The translations under genes and the position numbers were made by a program. Of a stretch of DNA of 22,360 bases, positions 3,703 to 20,266 are shown piece after piece; positions within the stretch are counted from its first letter, which is position 1, and each line of letters opens with the position of its first letter. Where the stretch lies: positions 1-22,360 of IMG/VR virus record IMGVR_UViG_3300033553_000270; one strand, given 5' to 3'. This DNA comes from a virus. The notes under the pieces are model-generated. The model was not told the DNA's origin. It saw only the letters and a list, made by a program, of their open reading frames with translations, and did no database searches.

Positions 3703-3773
3703 GATGTCGTCGTTCAAATAGTAGGACGTGGGATTTTAAACCCGAGATGTAGGTGCAACTCCTACCGACATCG
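3703..3773 (+). tRNA. Degenerate tRNA or tRNA-like RNA, identity unclear
   Basis: A cloverleaf can be drawn. Acceptor: GATGTCG (3703-3709) with CGACATC (3766-3772), 7 perfect pairs, extendable by two outward. D stem: GTTC (3712-3715) with GGAC (3724-3727). T arm: GTAGG (3749-3753), loop TGCAACT, CCTAC (3761-3765). U8, A14, G19, A21, U54, C56 and A58 are present. Oddities: position 18 is A and position 55 is G, so both partners of the usual G18-psi55 contact are changed. The anticodon arm is poor: only TGGG/CCCG pairs around an 8-base loop ATTTTAAA. A 7-base reading gives anticodon UUA, the other register UUU (Lys). No CCA is encoded. It may be a diverged tRNA, a non-decoding tRNA mimic or a processing signal. 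Confidence 0.45.
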
Positions 3774-3787
3774 ACCTCGAGGACTAT

Positions 3788-3997
3788 ATGATTGAATATC
3801 TTAAAAAGTTACAAGCCAATGCAATCAAGGTGGCCGAACCATTAATCGCCCCATTCTTGACTATAATTTTAATCACAATTGTGGTAAGTGTTGTCTCATT
3901 TAGACTACTATGGTCTAATGATACCTTCCACACAGTATTCTTGACCGTTCTTCTTTATAAGTCGGCATTGAAGATTACGAAGGACTTCTTAGATTGA
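3788..3997 (+). CDS. Small membrane protein, function unknown
   Basis: A 69-aa protein with an amphipathic Lys-containing N-terminus (MIEYLKKLQANAIK), a strongly hydrophobic segment at about 18-42 (LIAPFLTIILITIVVSVVSF) and a second weakly hydrophobic stretch at about 48-60. One or two membrane passes are predicted. Size and topology would suit a holin-like or other small phage membrane protein, but nothing specific supports lysis: no endolysin is visible nearby and the context is the junction with structural genes. The start follows GAGGA (3779-3783). Its TGA stop overlaps a promoter-like element for the next gene. Confidence 0.7.
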   Translation: MIEYLKKLQANAIKVAEPLIAPFLTIILITIVVSVVSFRLLWSNDTFHTVFLTVLLYKSALKITKDFLD

Positions 3998-4003
3998 TAT
4001 AAT
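3995..4003 (+). promoter_or_regulatory. Extended -10 promoter candidate at the start of the structural block
   Basis: TGATATAAT is a perfect extended -10 (TGN-TATAAT) with the hexamer at 3998-4003. The identical 9-mer recurs at 11552-11560 before the second tail block. No good -35 is visible, which extended -10 promoters can tolerate. The expected start point, about 7 bases on, falls at or next to the ATG at 4010. Confidence 0.45.
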
Positions 4004-4009
4004 TTAAGT

Positions 4010-4801
4010 ATGTCGGACATATCATTTAAAATTAGGGCTGAAGCATTAGGGAAAACCCTAGAAAATCTAGCACCTAAAATCGAAGCAGAAGTTAATGAGG
4101 CTGTAAAGAATCTAGCCCACGCAGCTTATATTGAGATGACGGCTTTAATCCAAAGAAAACAAATAACCGATACTAATCGTCAAGACTATCTTAAAGGTTT
4201 AAGATTCACCGAGTTAGGCGACAATGGTTATTTAATTCACTTAGAAGGTGAATGGGCGAATAAATTAGAAAATGGTTACGGTCCGTATTCTTTAAGAGAG
4301 ATTCTTTTAAAGTCTAAAAAGATAGTTCAAGTAGGTCCTAGAACTGGTCAACCGTGGGTCCAAACCAATGCTGAAGGTAAGAAATATGGACACGTTCCAT
4401 TTGACCACCATCCGCACCGAGGAACCCAATCTGGAGACTTAGCTACCGACATCAAGAAGTTGTCGGCTAATAATGCTTTTGGAAAACCTCAAAGTCTTAC
4501 TGAGATATTTAAAGGGGTTAACGGAAACCCATTAGATTCAGGGTCTGGAATAAATACAAGACCTGTAGCTGTTGTTAAATCACTTCCAGATGGAGCATCG
4601 AAGAATTTAATGAATATGGCTAAGTTCCAAAAGGTCCATGAATCTGGAGCCGTCTCTTCAACTTATATGACTTGGAGAACTATTTCAGAAAGCGGACGAG
4701 ATTGGACACACCCGGGTTCAAAAGGTTACGAGATCTTCAAACAAGCTGAAAAATGGGTTGAAGCTGAGATGGACAACATCATTAAAACATTGTTAAAATA
4801 G
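4010..4801 (+). CDS. Virion structural protein, probable neck/tail completion (HK97 gp10-like)
   Basis: A 263-aa protein. The C-terminal pattern WRTISESGRDWTHPGSKGYE (222-241), followed by an aromatic-rich helix to the end, matches the F-R-T-S...W-HPG...G layout common in HK97 gp10-like tail completion proteins and their relatives in large phages. The N-terminal 60 residues form a helical segment (AEVNEAVKNLAHAAYIEMTALIQ), also usual for that group. Position upstream of sheath and tube agrees with a role at the head-tail junction. There is no recognisable Shine-Dalgarno before the ATG; an extended -10 element ends 6 bases upstream. No catalytic motifs. The assignment to this family is moderate and the exact place in the virion is inferred. 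Confidence 0.65.
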   Translation: MSDISFKIRAEALGKTLENLAPKIEAEVNEAVKNLAHAAYIEMTALIQRKQITDTNRQDYLKGLRFTELGDNGYLIHLEGEWANKLENGYGPYSLREILLKSKKIVQVGPRTGQPWVQTNAEGKKYGHVPFDHHPHRGTQSGDLATDIKKLSANNAFGKPQSLTEIFKGVNGNPLDSGSGINTRPVAVVKSLPDGASKNLMNMAKFQKVHESGAVSSTYMTWRTISESGRDWTHPGSKGYEIFKQAEKWVEAEMDNIIKTLLK

Positions 4802-5978: not shown

Positions 5979-7835
5979 ATGTCTATTAAGAAATCGTTTA
6001 ATGCTAAGTCAATCAGAAAACCTGGTTCGTACTCAAAGCAAAAAGTTGACAACTCAGCTGGAGCTCCATTAAGAGCAACAGATACGTTAATGATCGTTGG
6101 AGAATCTTCAAAAGGTGCTCCTGGCGTTACTTCAGGAATTGTTGAATTTGCTGCTGAAAGACTTTCAGATTTGATTGCTACTTTCGGTTCAGGTCCAATC
6201 GTTGATGCAGCCGTTGCTGCAGCTCGTCCATCTAAGCAAAATGGTGTAGGTGGTGCATCAGTTATTAAGGTTTATAAAACAAACGCTTCTACGCAAGCTA
6301 CGGCAGCTCTAAAGAAGTCTACTTCTAATATCTACGCTGTTAAAGACGCTGCATTTGGTGCTGAAGGAAACGACCTATCAGTTATCGTTACTGATGGTGA
6401 TACTGCTAATCAAAAAATTATCTCAATCGCTAAAGTTGGTGATACAACTGAAGCTATCGGACAAAACGCTGCACAATCAGTAATCACTGTAGAATATACT
6501 GGTGACGGTTCGGCTGCTACTATGACGATCGCTGGTTCAACTCAACAAGGTAAAACTCTAGTTACGGCATTAACTGCTCAAACTGATGGTTCAGCTAACC
6601 TGAACGTTACTTTAAAGAACTATACAATGAAAACTCTTGTAGATTACATCAACGCTCAAGTTGGATACTCTGCAACTCTTAACACTGTATCTCTATCTCA
6701 AAAATCTGCAATTGAGCTTGATCCAATTACAGCTCAAGACATCACGTCTGCAAAAATTCAATATAGAACTCAAAGAGAGATTCTTGAACTTCTAAATACT
6801 TCAGGAAGAGTTGAAGCTTCAATCGAAGCTGTTTCAGTTGTTGGAATTATCGACTCAGGAACTACATTCCTTGTGGGTGGTTCTCAAGGTGCTTCTGCAA
6901 ACTCAAACTTCTCTGCAGGTTTCTCTGCATCTTTATCTGAAGATTACAACGTTCTTCTTCCAGCAGTAAGTCGTGACGCTTCTGAAGATGTTGCTGATGC
7001 AATTCAAGGTTTCACTGATCCATCATCGTCTTATACGGTTAACGCTGTATTGGTTGCTGCTGATACTCACTTAAGATTAAGAGGCGATACTAAAAACCGT
7101 AAAGAAGCTCAAGGTTTTGCAGGTATCCGTAAATCAACTAAAGCTGATGCATTTGCTGCAATCGCTGGAATTGGTTCTGAATATATGCAAATCACTATGC
7201 AAGATTGTATGATCATTGCAGCTGATGGTAATGAAACGTTTATGCACCCGCACATCACGGCAGCCCTTGCAGCTGGTATGAGATTGGGTCAAGCGGTTGG
7301 AGAGCCACTTACTTTCAAATTCCCTAACGTAATTCAAGTTGGTCATTTCTTAAATCCAGAAACTGGTCTTGCAGCTGGTGATTTTAATCCTGGTTTAGAT
7401 TATGATGCAGCTATTGATGCTGGTGTTCTATACTTAGAAAAAGCATCTGGTGGATTTAGATGGGTTGTTGATAACACGACTTACGGAATTGATGATTCAT
7501 TCATTTATAACCGTGGATCAGTTATGGCTGCTGCGATGTTCGTAAGCAAAACTCTTAGAGAGACTGCTGAACTTGCGTTCGTAGGTAAAAAAGTGTCAAA
7601 CGGTGCTGCTAGTTCAATCAAAAACGTTGTTAGAAATAAACTACGTGAACTTAATGCTCCTGACGTAAATATCATTACTGCTTCGCAAGATGCTCCAGAA
7701 GGTTTCCGCGAAGATACATTTGTTGTTACAGTAGTAGGAAACACTGCAACGGTGCAAGTCGAGTATAAACCAGTTCAAGGTTTAGACTTCGTATTCTTCG
7801 ATTTTACGATCGGGGACATCAAGCAAACAGCATAG
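5979..7835 (+). CDS. Contractile tail sheath protein
   Basis: A 618-aa protein that polymerises around the tail tube and contracts on infection. The start of the body, DTLMIVGESSKGAPG (35-49), matches sheath N-terminal domains. The C-terminal half has the conserved core: MQDCMIIAADG, HPHITAALAAGMRLG, LYLEKASGGFRWVVDNTTYG, FIYNRGSVMAA, and a terminal beta domain ending FVFFDFTIGDIKQTA, which corresponds to the domain that hooks neighbouring subunits. An Ala/Thr/Gly-rich segment at about 100-260 is a variable outer domain, which accounts for a length at the larger end for sheaths. The start follows AAGGAG. It is the first of three closely spaced genes (sheath, linker, tube). Confidence 0.95.
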   Translation: MSIKKSFNAKSIRKPGSYSKQKVDNSAGAPLRATDTLMIVGESSKGAPGVTSGIVEFAAERLSDLIATFGSGPIVDAAVAAARPSKQNGVGGASVIKVYKTNASTQATAALKKSTSNIYAVKDAAFGAEGNDLSVIVTDGDTANQKIISIAKVGDTTEAIGQNAAQSVITVEYTGDGSAATMTIAGSTQQGKTLVTALTAQTDGSANLNVTLKNYTMKTLVDYINAQVGYSATLNTVSLSQKSAIELDPITAQDITSAKIQYRTQREILELLNTSGRVEASIEAVSVVGIIDSGTTFLVGGSQGASANSNFSAGFSASLSEDYNVLLPAVSRDASEDVADAIQGFTDPSSSYTVNAVLVAADTHLRLRGDTKNRKEAQGFAGIRKSTKADAFAAIAGIGSEYMQITMQDCMIIAADGNETFMHPHITAALAAGMRLGQAVGEPLTFKFPNVIQVGHFLNPETGLAAGDFNPGLDYDAAIDAGVLYLEKASGGFRWVVDNTTYGIDDSFIYNRGSVMAAAMFVSKTLRETAELAFVGKKVSNGAASSIKNVVRNKLRELNAPDVNIITASQDAPEGFREDTFVVTVVGNTATVQVEYKPVQGLDFVFFDFTIGDIKQTA

Positions 7836-8348: not shown

Positions 8349-8756
8349 ATGAGTAAGGTTTTAACGGGTTCGAAAGCAGCCCTAAAGATCAATGGTGTTA
8401 AAGTTGGATACGTTGGTGGAGTAAACATCGACGAAACTAACGAACTTACAGACATTGACGTTCTAGATCAATTAGAAGTTGCTGAACATGCTGAAACAGC
8501 TCACAAGGTTTCTTTTAGCTGTAACATGTTCAAAATCGATGGAAACTCTACAACTCAATTAGGGATTTCTGCAGCGAACATTAAAGACATCATGAGTCAA
8601 CCTGAGTTGACGATGGAACTTTATAATACAGTTGACGATAGAGTTGAATACACTATCTCAGGTGTTAAGTGGGCAGGTGGTTCTGGTTCTGTTGATGCTC
8701 GTGGAGTATGGCAAGGAACTTGGAACTTTAAAGGAAGAATCGGTCGCGGTATGTAA
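8349..8756 (+). CDS. Tail tube protein
   Basis: A 135-aa beta-rich protein. KAALKINGVKVGYVGGVNID (9-28), the central LYNTVDDRVEYTISGVKWAG and the C-terminal GVWQGTWNFKGRIG give the alternating-strand pattern of the short contractile-phage tube fold. Such proteins stack as hexamers to make the inner conduit inside the sheath. Size (130-170 aa is usual) and position right after the sheath and linker genes agree. It begins 1 base after the upstream stop with a perfect AAAGGAG. It is followed immediately by two hairpins, the second a strong terminator, which closes this operon. Confidence 0.82.
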   Translation: MSKVLTGSKAALKINGVKVGYVGGVNIDETNELTDIDVLDQLEVAEHAETAHKVSFSCNMFKIDGNSTTQLGISAANIKDIMSQPELTMELYNTVDDRVEYTISGVKWAGGSGSVDARGVWQGTWNFKGRIGRGM

Positions 8757-8762
8757 TTGCTG

Positions 8763-8834
8763 GTGCTAAGTTCTTTTGGCACGATATGGGCTCTGTAGAG
8801 AAATTCCCCCTTCTTTACAGAGCCTTTTTATTTT
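8763..8834 (+). terminator. Intrinsic terminator after the tube gene, with a preceding hairpin
   Basis: The terminator stem pairs 8789-8802 with 8811-8824 (GGCTCTGTAGAGAA with TTCTTTACAGAGCC): 14 pairs including one G-U. The loop is ATTCCCCC and the tract TTTTTATTTT follows at 8825-8834. Just before it, GTGCTAA (8763-8769) pairs with TTGGCAC (8776-8782), possibly a 3' mRNA-stabilising hairpin. The structure is one-directional: read on the minus strand no T-tract follows, so it is a poor stop for the convergent cassette. Confidence 0.88.
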
Positions 8835-9060
8835 AGAAAAATGAACCACCTTCATAATCATCGTCCTCGCCATCTTCTTCATCGTCAACATTCTCAGAAA
8901 TCTCGATATGTTCTAATTCTGTTGCCTGCTCAAGTCCAATTACTGTGGGACGTCCACACAACAAACAAGCGTCTAATTCACTAGAGATGTCATCGCACTT
9001 TGTGCAGTATCCGTGACCTTCATCTTCGTGTTCATCGTACTGTCTTTGAGTCATTCTCAT
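8833..9060 (-). CDS. Zinc-ribbon protein with acidic tail
   Basis: A 75-aa protein with Cys19-x2-Cys22 (CTKC) and Cys32-x2-Cys35 (CLLC), a compact four-Cys zinc-ribbon or rubredoxin-like knuckle with only nine residues between the pairs. From about residue 46 on it is strongly acidic, with a Glu/Asp run at 59-70, suggesting a flexible tail that could mimic nucleic acid or bind a basic partner. The exact function is unknown. Its ribosome site AAGGAG lies inside the last codons of the cytochrome-like gene. Last gene of the reverse cassette; its stop abuts the terminator T-tract of the opposing tube operon. Confidence 0.75.
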   Translation of the reverse strand: MRMTQRQYDEHEDEGHGYCTKCDDISSELDACLLCGRPTVIGLEQATELEHIEISENVDDEEDGEDDDYEGGSFF

Positions 9061-9062
9061 AA

Positions 9063-9362
9063 TTACTCCTTGCTTCCTTGATTGTACCAGTCTCTAAATA
9101 GAGCCCGTTGTTCGTTAGTTAATGTTTTACCGGCTGGCATACTTTTATCGATCACTACTCTTTGATAAATAAGTTGACGACGATTATAAGCATTTTCATA
9201 AATAGAATAGTCTCTTATTCCATCGTTATGACAACTAATGCATACGGTCGACGTAATAGGTTTAATTTGGTCGTTAAAGGTTACGTTAGTGGTAACTGTA
9301 ACTTGAGATTTTTCACCGCAAGAAACGGAAAATAGAACCACTATAAGTATAATGGCTCTCAT
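9063..9362 (-). CDS. Mono-haem cytochrome c-like lipoprotein
   Basis: A 99-aa protein. The N-terminus MRAIILIVVLFSVSC is a short lipoprotein-type signal with Cys15 as probable lipidated residue (the lipobox is slightly atypical at -3). The mature part has CISCH (41-45), the CXXCH motif for covalent haem c. SMPAG (74-78) supplies a plausible distal Met75, followed by the helix LTNEQRALFRDWYNQG (81-96) ending as in small bacterial cytochrome c domains. If lipidated and haem-loaded it would be a membrane-anchored periplasmic electron carrier; it would depend on host Sec, lipoprotein and cytochrome c maturation systems. Its ATG overlaps the TGA of the 42-aa membrane gene (ATGA), indicating coupled translation. 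Cytochromes are not part of standard phage gene sets. Haem binding is predicted from motifs only. Confidence 0.78.
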   Translation of the reverse strand: MRAIILIVVLFSVSCGEKSQVTVTTNVTFNDQIKPITSTVCISCHNDGIRDYSIYENAYNRRQLIYQRVVIDKSMPAGKTLTNEQRALFRDWYNQGSKE

Positions 9363-9487
9363 TGATCTTTCTTCTTTTTAAGGAGTTTTTTGAGACCCAG
9401 GGCTCCAAGAACTAGGAATCCGCCTGGTGTAATGGTGGCAAGTACGCCGATAATGATGAGTTTCTTCCAATCTGGTTTGTTAGCCAT
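9359..9487 (-). CDS. 42-aa single-pass membrane protein
   Basis: Translation from ATG at 9487 gives MANKPDWKKLIIIGVLATIT, then PGGFLVLGALGLKKLL and a terminal KKKKDQ. One membrane segment (about 10-32) is flanked by Lys on both sides, with a strongly basic tail. The ribosome site AAGAGG has good spacing but lies in the 3' arm of a hairpin (9492-9523). The stop overlaps the next start as ATGA, tying its translation to the cytochrome-like lipoprotein. It could anchor or partner that protein or act independently; the sequence does not decide. Base composition and codon use fit its neighbours. Confidence 0.7.
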   Translation of the reverse strand: MANKPDWKKLIIIGVLATITPGGFLVLGALGLKKLLKKKKDQ

Positions 9488-9491
9488 AAAA

Positions 9492-9523
9492 CCTCTTGGG
9501 ACGATGATAACAATCCCAAGAGG
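9492..9523 (-). promoter_or_regulatory. Perfect 10-bp inverted repeat covering a ribosome site
   Basis: CCTCTTGGGA (9492-9501) and TCCCAAGAGG (9514-9523) are exact inverse copies with a 12-base loop. On the minus-strand mRNA the 3' arm ends in AAGAGG, the Shine-Dalgarno of the 42-aa gene, followed by only TTTT before the ATG at 9487. It could hide the ribosome site, act as a weak terminator after the 66-aa gene, or serve as an operator. The repeat is seen directly; the role is inferred. Confidence 0.6.
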
Positions 9524-9532
9524 CAAAGTAAA

Positions 9533-9733
9533 CTAGTCAAGAACTTTAATTTGATCCAGAAATATGGCTGTTGCAGGGTCAACCAATATCTGTTTATGAC
9601 ACTTTGGACAAACTAAGTTGCCTAAGCGGCGTAGGGCAATTTCTACTTCGAACATAGTGAATTGGTCACACTTGGAACAATAGAGGTTATTTAGTTGTTT
9701 ATGGCGGCTTAGGTCCGCAACTGTGACTTCCAC
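9533..9733 (-). CDS. Small zinc-ribbon protein
   Basis: A 66-aa protein with Cys19-x2-Cys22 (CSKC) and Cys42-x2-Cys45 (CPKC) separated by 19 residues, the classic zinc-ribbon spacing. The intervening segment FTMFEVEIALRRLGNLV supplies the strands. The start is GTG at 9733 with AGGAAG upstream at acceptable spacing. Such small ribbons in phages are often adaptors for nucleic acid or RNA polymerase, but no specific function can be assigned. It lies 2 bases from the end of the 77-aa gene, and a strong inverted repeat follows its stop. Confidence 0.72.
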   Translation of the reverse strand: MEVTVADLSRHKQLNNLYCSKCDQFTMFEVEIALRRLGNLVCPKCHKQILVDPATAIFLDQIKVLD

Positions 9734-9735
9734 GG

Positions 9736-9969
9736 CTATACTTCCTGTAATACCAACCTAAAGACTCGAGCTTTTGCGCTTTTACGGTGCGCTTTATCTT
9801 TGGTTTTTTCTTCGAAGTCAGATAACGCCTCTTTGGCATTCTTGAATAGGGACTTTTCAGCGACTAAGACGTTCTTACCAGGTTTAACTTCCTCTGGAAC
9901 GCCATAACGATCCATACCTTGTTTAAGCGTCTCTCCAGATTTGATCCAACCGTATCCGATAACTTTCAT
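9736..9969 (-). CDS. Small basic protein, function unknown
   Basis: A 77-aa protein, not recognised. It starts MKVIGYGWIKSGETL, has a central helical part rich in Lys and Glu (FKNAKEALSDFEEKTKDKAH) and a short C-terminal strand (ARVFRLVLQEV). It is basic overall. The start follows GGAGG at ideal spacing. It is the first gene downstream of the 120-base non-coding gap that holds a 19-bp palindrome, so it may begin a second transcription unit inside the reverse cassette. No membrane or metal motif. Confidence 0.68.
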   Translation of the reverse strand: MKVIGYGWIKSGETLKQGMDRYGVPEEVKPGKNVLVAEKSLFKNAKEALSDFEEKTKDKAHRKSAKARVFRLVLQEV

Positions 9970-10089: not shown

Positions 10090-10257
10090 TTAAGATGCTA
10101 GTTTTACATCTTCAGAATGCATCATGTATATCAACTGTATACCATCGACGTGGTTGACACCCATAGCTATAAAGTCATATTTCAACGATGGACCATCCGC
10201 CACGTGAACCATACACCATGATTTATCAGCAGACAGAACGATCTTATCGATTACCAT
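10090..10257 (-). CDS. 55-aa protein overlapping the subtilase gene end
   Basis: The ATG at 10257 has a near-perfect ribosome site (AAAGGAG, 6 bases away) located in the last codons of the subtilase gene. The two coding regions overlap by 14 bases. The protein begins MVIDKIVLSADKSW, continues CMVHVADGPSLKYDFIAMG and ends in MMHSEDVKLAS. It looks like a small alpha/beta domain and has no known motif. The strong start signal and overlap make it a likely real, coupled gene. Function unknown. Confidence 0.6.
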   Translation of the reverse strand: MVIDKIVLSADKSWCMVHVADGPSLKYDFIAMGVNHVDGIQLIYMMHSEDVKLAS

Positions 10258-10946: not shown

Positions 10947-11444
10947 TTAAACTCCTAGAAGTTTATGGAGTCTTTCAGACACTTCTACTGAAGCGATTCT
11001 TAAATAGTGATCATAGATACGATAATAAAGAAGACGTGCATATTTAGCGTACGCAGCTTCTAAGTCATCATGAAACCATTCAGAATTTTGATTAGCATTT
11101 GCGACGTAGCTCTTAACATTAAAAGAAATATGACATACATCATAATCTTCCATGAATTCAGAACCTAGTTTGTCAATTAACAACAACGTCTTCTTTCCAC
11201 GAAAACCTTCGAATAGTTCTTTAATATCTTCTTGACATTGGTGGAATTCTGCCATTTTAGCGATATCTGCTTTTTGTTGAATCTCTAAAGTCGCAGCTGC
11301 AATTGCAGTTCTACGATCAAGTTCAGCATCTATTAATATAAAGATTGGGTGATTTTCAGAAAGATCATTAAGAATGTTATACAAAAAATCTTCAGATAAT
11401 CTAGTGACGTTCTCGGCTGTAACTTTGATATTTTTGTTAAACAT
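10947..11444 (-). CDS. Helical protein of unknown function, first gene of the reverse cassette
   Basis: A 165-aa protein, mostly helical by composition. An N-terminal part (NILNDLSENHPIFILIDAEL) is followed by an Ala/Gln/Glu-rich helix (about 45-80, AIAAATLEIQQKADIAKMAE), a central VCHISFNVKSYV segment and a C-terminal helix with many Tyr and Arg (YAKYARLLYYRIYDHYLRI). No signal, membrane or catalytic motif. The start follows AGGGGG at good spacing. The upstream gap (11445-11599) is shared with the divergent chaperone genes; a weak minus-strand TATAGT lies at 11454-11459. Function unknown. Confidence 0.7.
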   Translation of the reverse strand: MFNKNIKVTAENVTRLSEDFLYNILNDLSENHPIFILIDAELDRRTAIAAATLEIQQKADIAKMAEFHQCQEDIKELFEGFRGKKTLLLIDKLGSEFMEDYDVCHISFNVKSYVANANQNSEWFHDDLEAAYAKYARLLYYRIYDHYLRIASVEVSERLHKLLGV

Positions 11445-11599: not shown

Positions 11600-11998
11600 A
11601 TGAGCAAAAACAATAGCTTAATTGATGAGCTACCCGATACTCGACACCAATTCGAAATTGACCTTCAAGGCAAAGTAACTAAAAAGCGTTTCGCAGGTGA
11701 GTTTGCCTGCAAAATCCCAAATATTAAAGACCAAGCTATGATCGCCAAACATCAAGCCATGTTAAATGGCGAATACCCAATCTATTTAGATGCTGGTGTT
11801 TTAAAAGTCCATCAAATGATTGCGTACTTACGTTATACATTGACAGAATACCCACTTTTTTGGAAACAATCAGATTTAGGTTATGAATTACGTGACTTTA
11901 ATATTATTGAAGCTGTTTACGATGAAGTCTTGGCCTTTGAAGATGAATGGTTGAAGCAAATCTGGGGTACAAATGACGGATCCAAAACCGAAGGTTGA
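11600..11998 (+). CDS. Probable tail assembly chaperone, first of an overlapping pair
   Basis: A 132-aa protein. The first part (DELPDTRHQFEIDLQGKVTK, then KRFAGEFACKIPNIKDQAMI) is beta-rich, followed by helices (VLKVHQMIAYLRYTLTEYPL, then YDEVLAFEDEWLKQIWG). Small acidic proteins of this shape, encoded directly before the tape measure and overlapping a second small gene, are typical tail chaperones that coat the tape measure during assembly. The start follows GGAG. The 3' end overlaps the next gene by 26 bases in the +1/-2 relative frame. The call rests mainly on position and layout; sequence motifs for this group are weak. Confidence 0.58.
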   Translation: MSKNNSLIDELPDTRHQFEIDLQGKVTKKRFAGEFACKIPNIKDQAMIAKHQAMLNGEYPIYLDAGVLKVHQMIAYLRYTLTEYPLFWKQSDLGYELRDFNIIEAVYDEVLAFEDEWLKQIWGTNDGSKTEG

Positions 11999-16868: not shown

Positions 16869-18077
16869 ATGCCAGGACCAACATTAACGCCGGAACAAAT
16901 TGCGCAAATGAAAAAGGAATCAGCTAAAGCTACTGCAGCTGCTGAAACTTTCACGGCTCAAATTGCAGCGCAACAAGCAAGAGCCGCTGAATTAGCGTTA
17001 GTAGACTCTGCATTCAAATCATTCTTTGATTACTACAATGATCAAATTATTGTTAAATACGATGCTGAACGCAAATTATTAAATGGTAATTACGTCGCAG
17101 CTCCTATAACTGAAGCCGATGTTTTAAGTTGTGCCAATTTAGCTGGAGGTAGGATTCAACCAACTATGCCGGCAACTGATGTTATTCGACTTCCTCAATT
17201 CGACGGAAGCCCTTTAATTGTGGATCCTATTAACGAGATTCAATTAATGACGGACCAAGCTACGGCAGAAACCACATTAGTTTCAGGTTTCGGTGGATCT
17301 CCTTTAAGTCCAACCGTCGTGACCGACTCAGCCATTGCTACAGGCGTAACAGCTCTTAAATTAACCGACCCTACTTCTGCATTTTATATTGCACCAAATC
17401 AAGTGTTCATCGTATCTAATGGTTCAGACTTTGCAGTCATTAAAGCAATTACAGCAGTTCTAGAAGACGATCCAGTTCCTCCTCCGTACGTAATGAATTT
17501 AGACATTGAGATTTTAGTTCAACCGACTGGAACCCTTTCAACTGGACTTTCATTATTGTCTTTTTCTGGATTCTCAAATGGTGAAAGGGCTATCAAAACC
17601 GCAAGTGATCCTGCGATGCAACCATTTATGGATTACTTAATTCTTGAACTTCAAAATAAAGTTAACGGAAGAATCACTAACCTTACGGCTCAGTTGACTT
17701 CAATTTCAACTAATCAAGATCCTGAAGGAACGGCTGAATTTACTCAAGCCACTACAAACGTGAATACCAGTAAGACTTTCTTGACTAATTACATTATTTC
17801 TACTGATATTTCAGATGCAGGGTTTACCACTACATCTGCAGAAAGAAGCACTAGATCTAGCCAGGCTACTGCCAGAGTTGCAGAAATAGCCTCAGCTTAT
17901 ACTGGAAGAACCCTTAATTATTACGATCAAAGGTATAATTTTGCAAATAATCGAGCAAATACTGCTCGAGGATCTCTAAGACTTCAAAAGAACTCAGAAG
18001 CAGGAGCCGCTACTTCTGGAGCATACGCGTCTACTCTCGGCGACCAGGCCTCAGCAATTGGTAGCATCCTTCCTTAA
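16869..18077 (+). CDS. Baseplate-region structural protein, function unknown
   Basis: A 402-aa protein, not recognised. The N-terminus (about 5-45) and the region at about 245-330 are Ala/Gln/Thr-rich and likely coiled coil (KATAAAETFTAQIAAQQARA). The middle (about 100-230) is beta-rich with many Pro, Thr and Val, and includes FYIAPNQVFIVSNGSDFAVI. The last 50 residues are helical and polar. It sits between the spike and a wedge gene, with AAGGAT as ribosome site and 9 bases from the spike stop. By position it should be a baseplate or baseplate-assembly protein, possibly a trimer with coils. No enzymatic motif. Contractile tail clusters often carry lineage-specific genes at this place. Confidence 0.62.
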   Translation: MPGPTLTPEQIAQMKKESAKATAAAETFTAQIAAQQARAAELALVDSAFKSFFDYYNDQIIVKYDAERKLLNGNYVAAPITEADVLSCANLAGGRIQPTMPATDVIRLPQFDGSPLIVDPINEIQLMTDQATAETTLVSGFGGSPLSPTVVTDSAIATGVTALKLTDPTSAFYIAPNQVFIVSNGSDFAVIKAITAVLEDDPVPPPYVMNLDIEILVQPTGTLSTGLSLLSFSGFSNGERAIKTASDPAMQPFMDYLILELQNKVNGRITNLTAQLTSISTNQDPEGTAEFTQATTNVNTSKTFLTNYIISTDISDAGFTTTSAERSTRSSQATARVAEIASAYTGRTLNYYDQRYNFANNRANTARGSLRLQKNSEAGAATSGAYASTLGDQASAIGSILP

Positions 18078-18118
18078 GTTGATAAAATCTAAAACAGATT
18101 AAGATAGGAGATTAATAG

Positions 18119-20266
18119 ATGCCTGGAATTTCAGACCTGGTTAATAACATTACCGGATCAGTCAACGGACTCATCGCCGATTTAAAAGGCGAGTCTAGAA
18201 ACGTCGTTGAATACCACCAAGATGAAAGCTCGTACAAGTCGGTTCAGTCAACATTGATTGCTTCGAACTGGATGAAGTTAAGTTTCCCATATACATTTTC
18301 AGTTGTTAATTTAGACGATCCATCAGATGACTTTACTTCTGGTTTCTCTGATTTTAAATTGCCTTTAGCACCTCAGTCGATTAATCAACGTGAAGAACCT
18401 GCAACTAATTCAAAAGCCTCTCAAGGTGGAACTACTACCAACCATAATGGTATGGGTTACAAGACATTAATGATCGCAGGAACCACGGGTCTTGCACCAT
18501 TTCGCGGAGATGGCGGAGTTAATAAGAAAACTGGTGAAGCTATCTTTCAACCTAAAGAATTGAAATATAAATCAGGCCACGAAGTATTCATCCATTTAAG
18601 AAACTGGTTTAGAACTTATTATGAATGGAAGAAGAAACAAGGCTCAGATGCCAAGAACTTTAGACTAGTCTTTAAGAACTATAAAGACGGTGAATTCCTA
18701 ATTGTGGAATTGGTCTCATTTGAAATGGATCGCCAAGCTGCTAAATCATTACTGTACGACTATAAGATAGAGCTTAAAGTGTTATCACACTTCGAATTCA
18801 CTACACCACAATCAAAATTAGGGTTCTTAGCTGATGCTGATGCATTCTTAGATGATGCTTTAGACAAAATCTCTACAGCTCGTGGCGTATTCTTAAGAAC
18901 TCAAGGGATTCTTCGCCAAATTGAAAGTACTTATAATAACTCAGTGCTTGAACCAATGAGACAAGCTACTCTTGCAATCAAGGCAGCATTGGCGGTTCCT
19001 GTAGTTGCAGCAGATATTGCATCACGTACAATCGTTAATACAGTTTCAACAGCTAAAGCATTAGCCATAGTTGCTCGTGAGTTACTAAATACTGTAACTT
19101 TAGGACTAACTGGTAAGTCTCAGACTTTATCTGAAATTGATGGATTATTAGACAAACGTTTATTCGGAAGTAAAAATACATTACAAAAGACAATGGCTGC
19201 AGCTCAGGCCGATGTTAAACAAAACGGTTCAATTGGTCTTTTAAAGCTTGGGGCTTTAATGACTAAGATCGATGCTGGAGCATTTCCAGAAAGAACTTTA
19301 AGTGAGACGGCTAAAGAACAAGCCCAAGCAGCAGAACTTCCAAGAAACTTCTATGAGAACGCAATTGACGAACTAGAAAGAGTTAAGAAGAATGCTGAAG
19401 ACTTCTTCAATTTAGGTTCAGCTGACTATGATGCTATTTTTGACCGTACAGCTACGCTTAATGCAGACGTTTCAAAAGTAACTACTAATGACGAATATGA
19501 TATCTTGTTTGCCTTCAATGAAGCAATCACTGGTTTAAACCTATTATTATCTACGACTGCAATGTTTAAGTCTACGATGGATGCTCAAATTGAAGATATG
19601 AACACTAGATTTAATGGCCAACTTCAATTGACTTCTAAACAAGCTGTTCGTCAAGTTAAACTAAAAGCTGGTCAGTCTCTTGAAAGACTCGCTCAAAAAG
19701 AATTAGGCGACTCTACTCGTTGGGGTGAGATTGTAGAAATCAATGGATTAAAAGCTCCGTATATTTCAGATGATCCTAAAGAGTCAAGAGACGGTGTTTT
19801 AAAAGCTGGTTCAAACATTTTAATTCCGACATCTTTAAAAGATGGATTCTCTGAAACTCCAGTAGGTAAACAAAACAAGTTAACCAAAGGAATGTCAGAG
19901 TTAGAAAGAAATCTTGGAGTAGACTTTAAGATTGACAAAGACTTCGATTTAGTGTTATCATCAAGTGGTGATTTTGAATTAGTGGCCGGTGGCGATAACA
20001 TGACTCAAGGAACAATCCTTAAGTTAAGTTATGAACCAGGCGATGTTATGTTGTATCCTTCTTTAGGAGCAGGTCTTGCAGTTGGTAGAAAGTTTCCACC
20101 GATTGAGGACATAACAGATCGTATTACTAGTTCGTTGTTACAAGACTCAAGAATTAATAAGGTAACTGATATTGCTTTAACCAGAGATGGCGGAGCTTTA
20201 TATATTCAGTTCAACATTTATATTAAACAAATTGACATACCAGTTCCAGTAAAAATAAAGGTGTAA
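18119..20266 (+). CDS. Fused baseplate wedge protein: gp53-like N-terminus, LysM, gp25-like C-terminus
   Basis: A 715-aa protein. The N-terminal region, about 55-230, has FKLPLAPQSINQREEPATNS, GMGYKTLMIAGTTG and FRLVFKNYKDGEFLIVELVS, the layout of LysM-bearing baseplate proteins such as T4 gp53 and XkdP-type genes. Residues about 250-500 are helical. A LysM domain follows at about 511-570 (VKLKAGQSLERLAQKELG, SNILIPTSL). The C-terminal 110 residues are a gp25/W-like wedge domain (LSYEPGDVMLYPSLGAGLAV, DITDRITSSLLQDSRI, then IQFNIYIKQIDIP). In T4 gp25 and gp53 are separate wedge proteins, so this is a natural fusion. Ribosome site AGGAG; the next gene starts 1 base after its stop. Domain calls are by pattern and size. 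Confidence 0.75.
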   Translation: MPGISDLVNNITGSVNGLIADLKGESRNVVEYHQDESSYKSVQSTLIASNWMKLSFPYTFSVVNLDDPSDDFTSGFSDFKLPLAPQSINQREEPATNSKASQGGTTTNHNGMGYKTLMIAGTTGLAPFRGDGGVNKKTGEAIFQPKELKYKSGHEVFIHLRNWFRTYYEWKKKQGSDAKNFRLVFKNYKDGEFLIVELVSFEMDRQAAKSLLYDYKIELKVLSHFEFTTPQSKLGFLADADAFLDDALDKISTARGVFLRTQGILRQIESTYNNSVLEPMRQATLAIKAALAVPVVAADIASRTIVNTVSTAKALAIVARELLNTVTLGLTGKSQTLSEIDGLLDKRLFGSKNTLQKTMAAAQADVKQNGSIGLLKLGALMTKIDAGAFPERTLSETAKEQAQAAELPRNFYENAIDELERVKKNAEDFFNLGSADYDAIFDRTATLNADVSKVTTNDEYDILFAFNEAITGLNLLLSTTAMFKSTMDAQIEDMNTRFNGQLQLTSKQAVRQVKLKAGQSLERLAQKELGDSTRWGEIVEINGLKAPYISDDPKESRDGVLKAGSNILIPTSLKDGFSETPVGKQNKLTKGMSELERNLGVDFKIDKDFDLVLSSSGDFELVAGGDNMTQGTILKLSYEPGDVMLYPSLGAGLAVGRKFPPIEDITDRITSSLLQDSRINKVTDIALTRDGGALYIQFNIYIKQIDIPVPVKIKV

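Follow-up and report, generated by a model that had tools for sequence, protein, structure and literature searches.

A minus-strand open reading frame at positions 9063–9362 of the viral record IMGVR_UViG_3300033553_000270 raises the question of whether a phage encodes an exported c-type cytochrome, and what such a protein would do during infection. Cytochromes c are electron carriers that normally belong to cells. The whole stretch of DNA analysed here, 22,360 nucleotides long, is referred to as the window. The matching plus-strand frame of this ORF holds several stops.

Genome context of the cytochrome gene

The window represents a fragment of a myovirus, since it carries a tail sheath gene; distant relatives of the sheath occur in Mx1 and SPO1-like phages. 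The tail genes lie on the plus strand, and a block of minus-strand genes fills the gap between the tube-like gene and the gene at 11600–11998. Myovirus structural genes flank the cytochrome ORF on either side, which agrees with a sequence-only reading that had called it a phage gene. The features of the region were as follows.

5979–7835 (+): tail sheath protein; tblastn matches to proteins annotated as tail sheath (Mx1, Moonbeam and others)
8349–8756 (+): tail-tube-like protein, left border of the cassette; 39–90% identity in related phages; phrog_985 virion structural protein; named "tube" from its position after the sheath
8833–9060 (−): acidic Cys-containing protein, 75 aa; 2 nt downstream of the cytochrome gene; homologue in phage L090 (45% identity, E 4e-11)
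9063–9362 (−): exported mono-haem cytochrome c-like protein, 99 aa; signal/anchor 1–15 (Cys15), CISCH 41–45, Met75-Pro76, Trp92, C-terminal helix 83–94
9359–9487 (−): small membrane peptide, 42 aa, with a "PGG" motif; 4-nt overlap with the cytochrome start; AAGAGG Shine-Dalgarno-like site
9533–9733 (−): cassette protein, 66 aa, with CxxC pairs (zinc-ribbon-like); weak family matches
9736–9969 (−): cassette protein, 77 aa; no known family matched
10090–10257 (−): cassette ORF, 55 aa, overlapping the end of the protease gene; resembles L092 8233–8391 by eye, unscored
10244–10945 (−): exported S8 (subtilisin-like) protease, 233 aa; PF00082 E 6e-17; catalytic D29, H55, S207 and oxyanion N139 conserved (alignment A13)
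10947–11444 (−): first gene of the cassette, 165 aa; no known family matched
11600–11998 (+): conserved post-tube gene, right border of the cassette; 33–63% identity to the genes in this position of related loci; presumed tail-assembly chaperone from its position

The cassette around the cytochrome gene shows operon-like packing and is not a loose insertion. The AAGGAG site of the gene for the 75-aa acidic protein sits at the 3' end of the cytochrome gene, and the 42-aa membrane peptide is likely co-translated with the cytochrome.

Tail-tube and sheath profiles recovered approximately 90 related phage loci, some of them overlapping, which are given L numbers here. Tiny membrane peptides with the PGG motif recur in the cassette (window 9359–9487, minus strand; L092 8133–8246; L093 18330–18488), the likeness being judged by eye. 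The cassettes of relatives also contained a 75–87-aa protein of the pattern MYRxRDLKxGxYQxHxK (L092 7919–8143, L093 18067–18327 and L121 18281–18511), which the window lacks, its cassette having the cytochrome. Homing-endonuclease-like ORFs, recognised by eye, adjoin the sheath and tube genes in L002 (11897–13699 and 14805–16118), L094 (2718–4019) and L097 (4762–6063), so that the sheath/tube gaps look like insertion hot spots. Positions 1–1041 (−) of the window encode a phage sigma-70-like factor (phrog_351, E 5e-41) that is truncated by the window edge.

Sequence features of the 99-aa protein

By computation, the 99-aa protein consists of one cytochrome c domain, of the PuuD-C-terminal/PSCyt1 kind, preceded by an N-terminal export signal. 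The N-terminus, MRAIILIVVLFSVSC15, forms a hydrophobic signal ahead of CISCH (residues 41–45), and the protein has a CxxCH haem-attachment motif behind an export signal as in c-type cytochromes. The residues named in the sequence-only reading (Cys15, C41-I-S-C44-H45 and Met75-Pro76) are all present in the translated ORF, and the C-terminal helix that it had described could be located at residues 83–94 of the AlphaFold2 model. Its lipoprotein-type signal held in part: the export signal stands, whereas the lipid anchor is non-canonical and was not conserved in the three phage homologues. Cys15 satisfies a PROSITE-PS51257-like rule for lipid attachment, and the strict lipobox [LVI][ASTVI][GAS]C is broken at −3 (Ser12). 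A lipidation cysteine was recognisable in none of these three homologues, the N-termini of which are hydrophobic.

When 300 windows were simulated with a Markov model, none of the 7305 ORFs of at least 60 aa combined a signal, CxxCH and a downstream MP; therefore, the combination found in the 99-aa ORF is not a product of chance. CxxCH as such occurred in 16 of these 7305 ORFs.

Profile comparison and predicted structure

The 99-aa protein is very probably a cytochrome c. A profile search against cytochrome c domains, suggested earlier as a check, was conducted using an HMM of 43 bacterial domains from which the phage protein was left out. It scored the phage protein at 49 bits (E 1e-13), a score that is not fully independent, as the 43 domains had been fetched with patterns from an alignment containing the phage protein. 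Under the same HMM, the best of 5000 CISCH-preserving shuffles of the phage protein reached 24.1 bits, and among the 4096 frames from the window plus 15 loci of related phages, none other than that of the phage protein exceeded 6.1 bits. Pfam returned sub-threshold matches to three haem-protein families, including similarity to the Haem_bd and PccH families. The protein scored 13.4 bits against a cut-off of 27 for PF13442 (Cytochrome_CBB3) and therefore falls outside that family; accepted bacterial domains also fell under this cut-off, among them L010 at 23.7 of 27 bits.

A tblastn search of plasmids matched PuuD urate hydroxylases, at E 4e-4 for the best, along with further CxxCH proteins of bacteria. 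The phage protein is not itself a PuuD, since the membrane urate oxidase domain PF06181 is absent from its 99 residues. Eighty related loci, mostly from Burkholderiales, were kept from a genome collection of 84,980 species, and the 43 domains of the HMM were drawn from them. The cellular relatives found were parts of much larger proteins, with open frames of 389–1222 aa, and a phylum-wide search around one genome revealed large multi-domain proteins only.

In an alignment of the phage protein with six bacterial proteins, only C41, C44, H45, M75, P76 and W92 were invariant; in alignment A14, the invariant residues were C41, C44, H45, M75, P76, R86 and W92. Met75 was invariant in alignments of 7, 44 and 25 sequences. 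Two cysteines, a histidine and a methionine approximately 40 residues further on are the invariant haem-binding residues of PuuD, in which Met385 is the sixth ligand (PMC4562309). Met75 aligns with this methionine, which supports the earlier proposal that it can serve as the sixth ligand.

AlphaFold2 modelling of the phage protein gave a pLDDT of 74.7, and of 83.0 once the phage homologues were added. The models could be superposed on the mono-haem cytochrome PccH with Z scores of 6.9 and 7.5 (2.0–2.1 Å over 72 residues). In the first structure comparison, all six chains with Z ≥ 2 were c-type cytochromes or carriers of such domains (hydrazine synthase). The prediction agrees with a cytochrome c fold, with Z staying below 8; Foldseek alone gave no significant PDB or viral match for the model. 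The structure provides separate support for the identity of the domain, and the mono-haem cytochrome c-like assignment is upheld by the HMM score together with the superposition on PccH.

Cytochrome homologues in related phages

The tube-to-chaperone gap could be read whole in nine loci (the window, L092, L093, L094, L097, L099, L100, L121 and L186), and a cytochrome of the window's family was found in three of them (the window, L121 and L182/L186). The homologue of L121, a 114 kb myophage contig, is located at 17958–18284 in the same gap as in the window. L182 and L186 are one 121 kb myophage contig, with the homologue again in this gap. A fourth copy, in L187 (52 kb contig), lies directly behind an exported subtilase gene with a 4-nt overlap; by eye, L187 carries terminase-like and other phage-like genes, and no sheath of the window's group could be detected in it. 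Going by the coordinates, each of the four phage cytochrome genes shares 4 nt with the gene before it.

The four phage cytochromes have in common the CxxCH, MP and W residues, a C-terminal G-(S/A)-K and an N-terminal hydrophobic stretch, at approximately 28–45% identity. Retention of haem-type residues at this level of divergence suggests selection on the haem site. A profile of three of the phage sequences retrieved the fourth at E 4e-20. The L182 and L187 cytochromes formed the sole supported grouping among the four (96/98), and several branches were long; a single phage clade of the four was not rejected (p-AU 0.37), yet not demonstrated either.

The phage homologues were recovered by sheath-based retrieval followed by an HMM scan, and by a phage-only profile. 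Single-protein searches revealed no relative among phages, viral contigs or genome contigs, profiles with bacterial members had no match in viral contigs, and four queries found no cytochrome homologue in 50,697 phage records. A match in the Leptospira phages LE3/LE4 (E 0.5) was discarded, as it straddles two ORFs and the LE4 stretch has no CxxCH.

Two further relatives, L112 and L139, carry unrelated small exported cytochromes c above Pfam cut-offs. The gene of L112, a 119 kb phage, is located at 6864–7169 (+), upstream of the sheath gene, and encodes a lipoprotein-like cytochrome c (MKPWGLLSLGLFILGCEDSK...CTSCH...MMP) above the PF00034 (33.9 bits) and PF13442 cut-offs. L139, which is more distantly related by its sheath, encodes a third type of small exported cytochrome c (CTSCHNSNP...AMPP; PF13442 35.8 bits) at 3735–4061 (+), and another lipoprotein-like gene follows. 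PF13442 matches occurred in at least 4 of the 41 phage records searched whole, a lower bound, as records may be fragments. The window's gene is no isolated case among phages: it belongs to a set of four homologues, and relatives carry two unrelated cytochromes.

A host-type metabolic gene is thus carried and retained by phages, with three homologues besides that of the window, two of them in the same gap. Since its counterparts in related phages lie at the corresponding position or next to the same exported protease gene, the gene probably functions for the virus, as opposed to being a stray piece of host DNA. Most of the relatives read have no cytochrome gene, which indicates that it is not essential.

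Proposed role of the cytochrome and alternatives

Electron transfer during infection is proposed as the role of the cytochrome. The case is evenly balanced, as it is drawn from the fold alone and a cytochrome tethered to the envelope might have a different task. Export would run through the host Sec and lipoprotein (or signal-anchor) pathway, which would leave the protein tethered to the envelope, where the host cytochrome c maturation system would couple a single haem to Cys41/Cys44; His45 and Met75 are the predicted haem ligands. The cytochrome may then carry electrons in the periplasm, so that their flow to a host oxidase or reductase is sustained or rerouted and the energy supply would last during phage replication. 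A haem-assembly gene (PF01578) was absent from the window and from five related phage records, as the sequence-only reading had stated for the phage, so the cytochrome would depend on the host for haem attachment. The host would be Gram-negative, judging by no more than the export/lipid signal and the cytochrome being of a periplasmic kind.

The catalytic D, H and S and the oxyanion N of the S8 protease are intact in seven phages, and the protein has an N-terminal hydrophobic signal. Its gene is conserved in this gap in several relatives, and also in L187. It is conceivable, if rather doubtful, that the protease and the tethered cytochrome form a mobile phage module, present in phages whose virion genes differ, by which the host's periplasmic respiratory chain would be commandeered or protected, or competing phages kept out, during infection. 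A direct partnership of the two proteins in one envelope module is judged unlikely; here the protease might trim proteins of the host envelope or of respiration, with the cytochrome re-establishing or diverting the flow of electrons, or the cytochrome might gate the protease through redox state. The intact triad is consistent with such a partnership, as is gene order: both genes lie in one minus-strand cassette in the window and L121, and in L187, where this tail sheath is absent, they directly adjoin with the 4-nt overlap. However, the protease is the commoner of the two and linkage is not strict, with the protease alone in L092, L093, L094 and L097 and the cytochrome alone in L182/L186, and the common cassette may merely reflect a common insertion site. 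The protease of L092 looks lipoprotein-like, and in L187 a membrane protein that is SPFH/prohibitin-like by eye (8871–9719, plus strand) comes just after the protease-cytochrome pair. Assignment of the protease to the IetS defence system was rejected, as the PADLOC matches extend over part of the subtilase domain in a protein that is far longer.

Small envelope lipoproteins made by phages, such as Llp of T5 and Cor of phi80, act in superinfection exclusion. Following this precedent, the tethered protein could mask or disturb a receptor or a DNA-entry step in the periplasm, with the borrowed cytochrome fold as a scaffold and any haem only stabilising it; such a function would suit the location of the gene, an accessory block on the minus strand that also holds further small genes and the exported protease gene. 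A mere scaffold would not need the CxxCH, Met and Trp residues kept in four divergent phage copies, however, and the presence of two unrelated cytochromes c in related phages suggests that selection acts on the haem domain, which makes this explanation quite unlikely. A haem- or metal-binding protein with another job, such as a redox or gas sensor or a haem scavenger, would be in line with the single haem site, the lack of an enzyme domain and the sub-threshold Haem_bd and PccH similarity; it is very unlikely, as Met-Pro at the sixth-ligand position in all copies would fit, going by PMC4562309, a low-spin His/Met carrier and not a ligand-binding site.

C-type cytochrome domains are common in bacteria. 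Cellular sequence can also contaminate viral metagenomes (PMC3877843), but a functionless captured host fragment or assembly contaminant is most improbable for a gene that is intact, is packed among phage genes at operon spacing, has the same surroundings in two independent contigs, and whose cellular relatives, as far as found, belong to far larger proteins.

Comparison with known systems

The electron carrier proposed here can be compared with several known proteins. The C-terminal cytochrome c domain of PuuD has 23–38% identity with the phage protein over approximately 75 residues (PMC4562309), and they have in common the CxxCH, the invariant Met 30–40 residues on, the C-terminal Trp helix and the periplasmic side of the membrane. 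In PuuD, however, the domain is fused to an eight-helix membrane enzyme domain (Urate_ox_N), whereas the phage protein is a lone domain with a short export signal. The nearest solved fold is PccH of Geobacter sulfurreducens (PDB 4rlr; Z 7.5, 2.0 Å over 72 residues, 21% identity), which differs in being bacterial and longer (126-residue chain), and the phage protein falls under the Pfam PccH cut-off. OmcF, an outer-membrane mono-haem cytochrome of Geobacter, resembles the phage protein in its size of approximately 100 aa, its predicted N-terminal lipid anchor and its one c-haem, which has His-Met ligation (PMC6971198), but it is bacterial, cytochrome c6-like in sequence and part of iron respiration. 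The LIC11213 lipoprotein family (NF047812) and lipoproteins of Bacteroidota are likewise small exported CxxCH proteins, but cellular; Emticicia WP_015031202 matches the phage protein at E 0.01, and NF047812 itself gave no match to it.

Among phage-borne genes, SoxD is a c-type cytochrome subunit reported as an auxiliary metabolic gene of phage contigs, though it belongs to a sulfur-oxidising enzyme and is not a stand-alone carrier; the two reported phage copies lack one or both cytochrome motifs (PMC8190135). Cyanophages carry photosynthetic electron-transport genes (PMC5082946). Phage redox genes are thus already known, and the open-access papers searched described no cytochrome c carried by a phage as a stand-alone protein. 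If the recurrent phage cytochrome c is what it appears to be, phages of some Gram-negative hosts would handle respiration directly in the periplasm.
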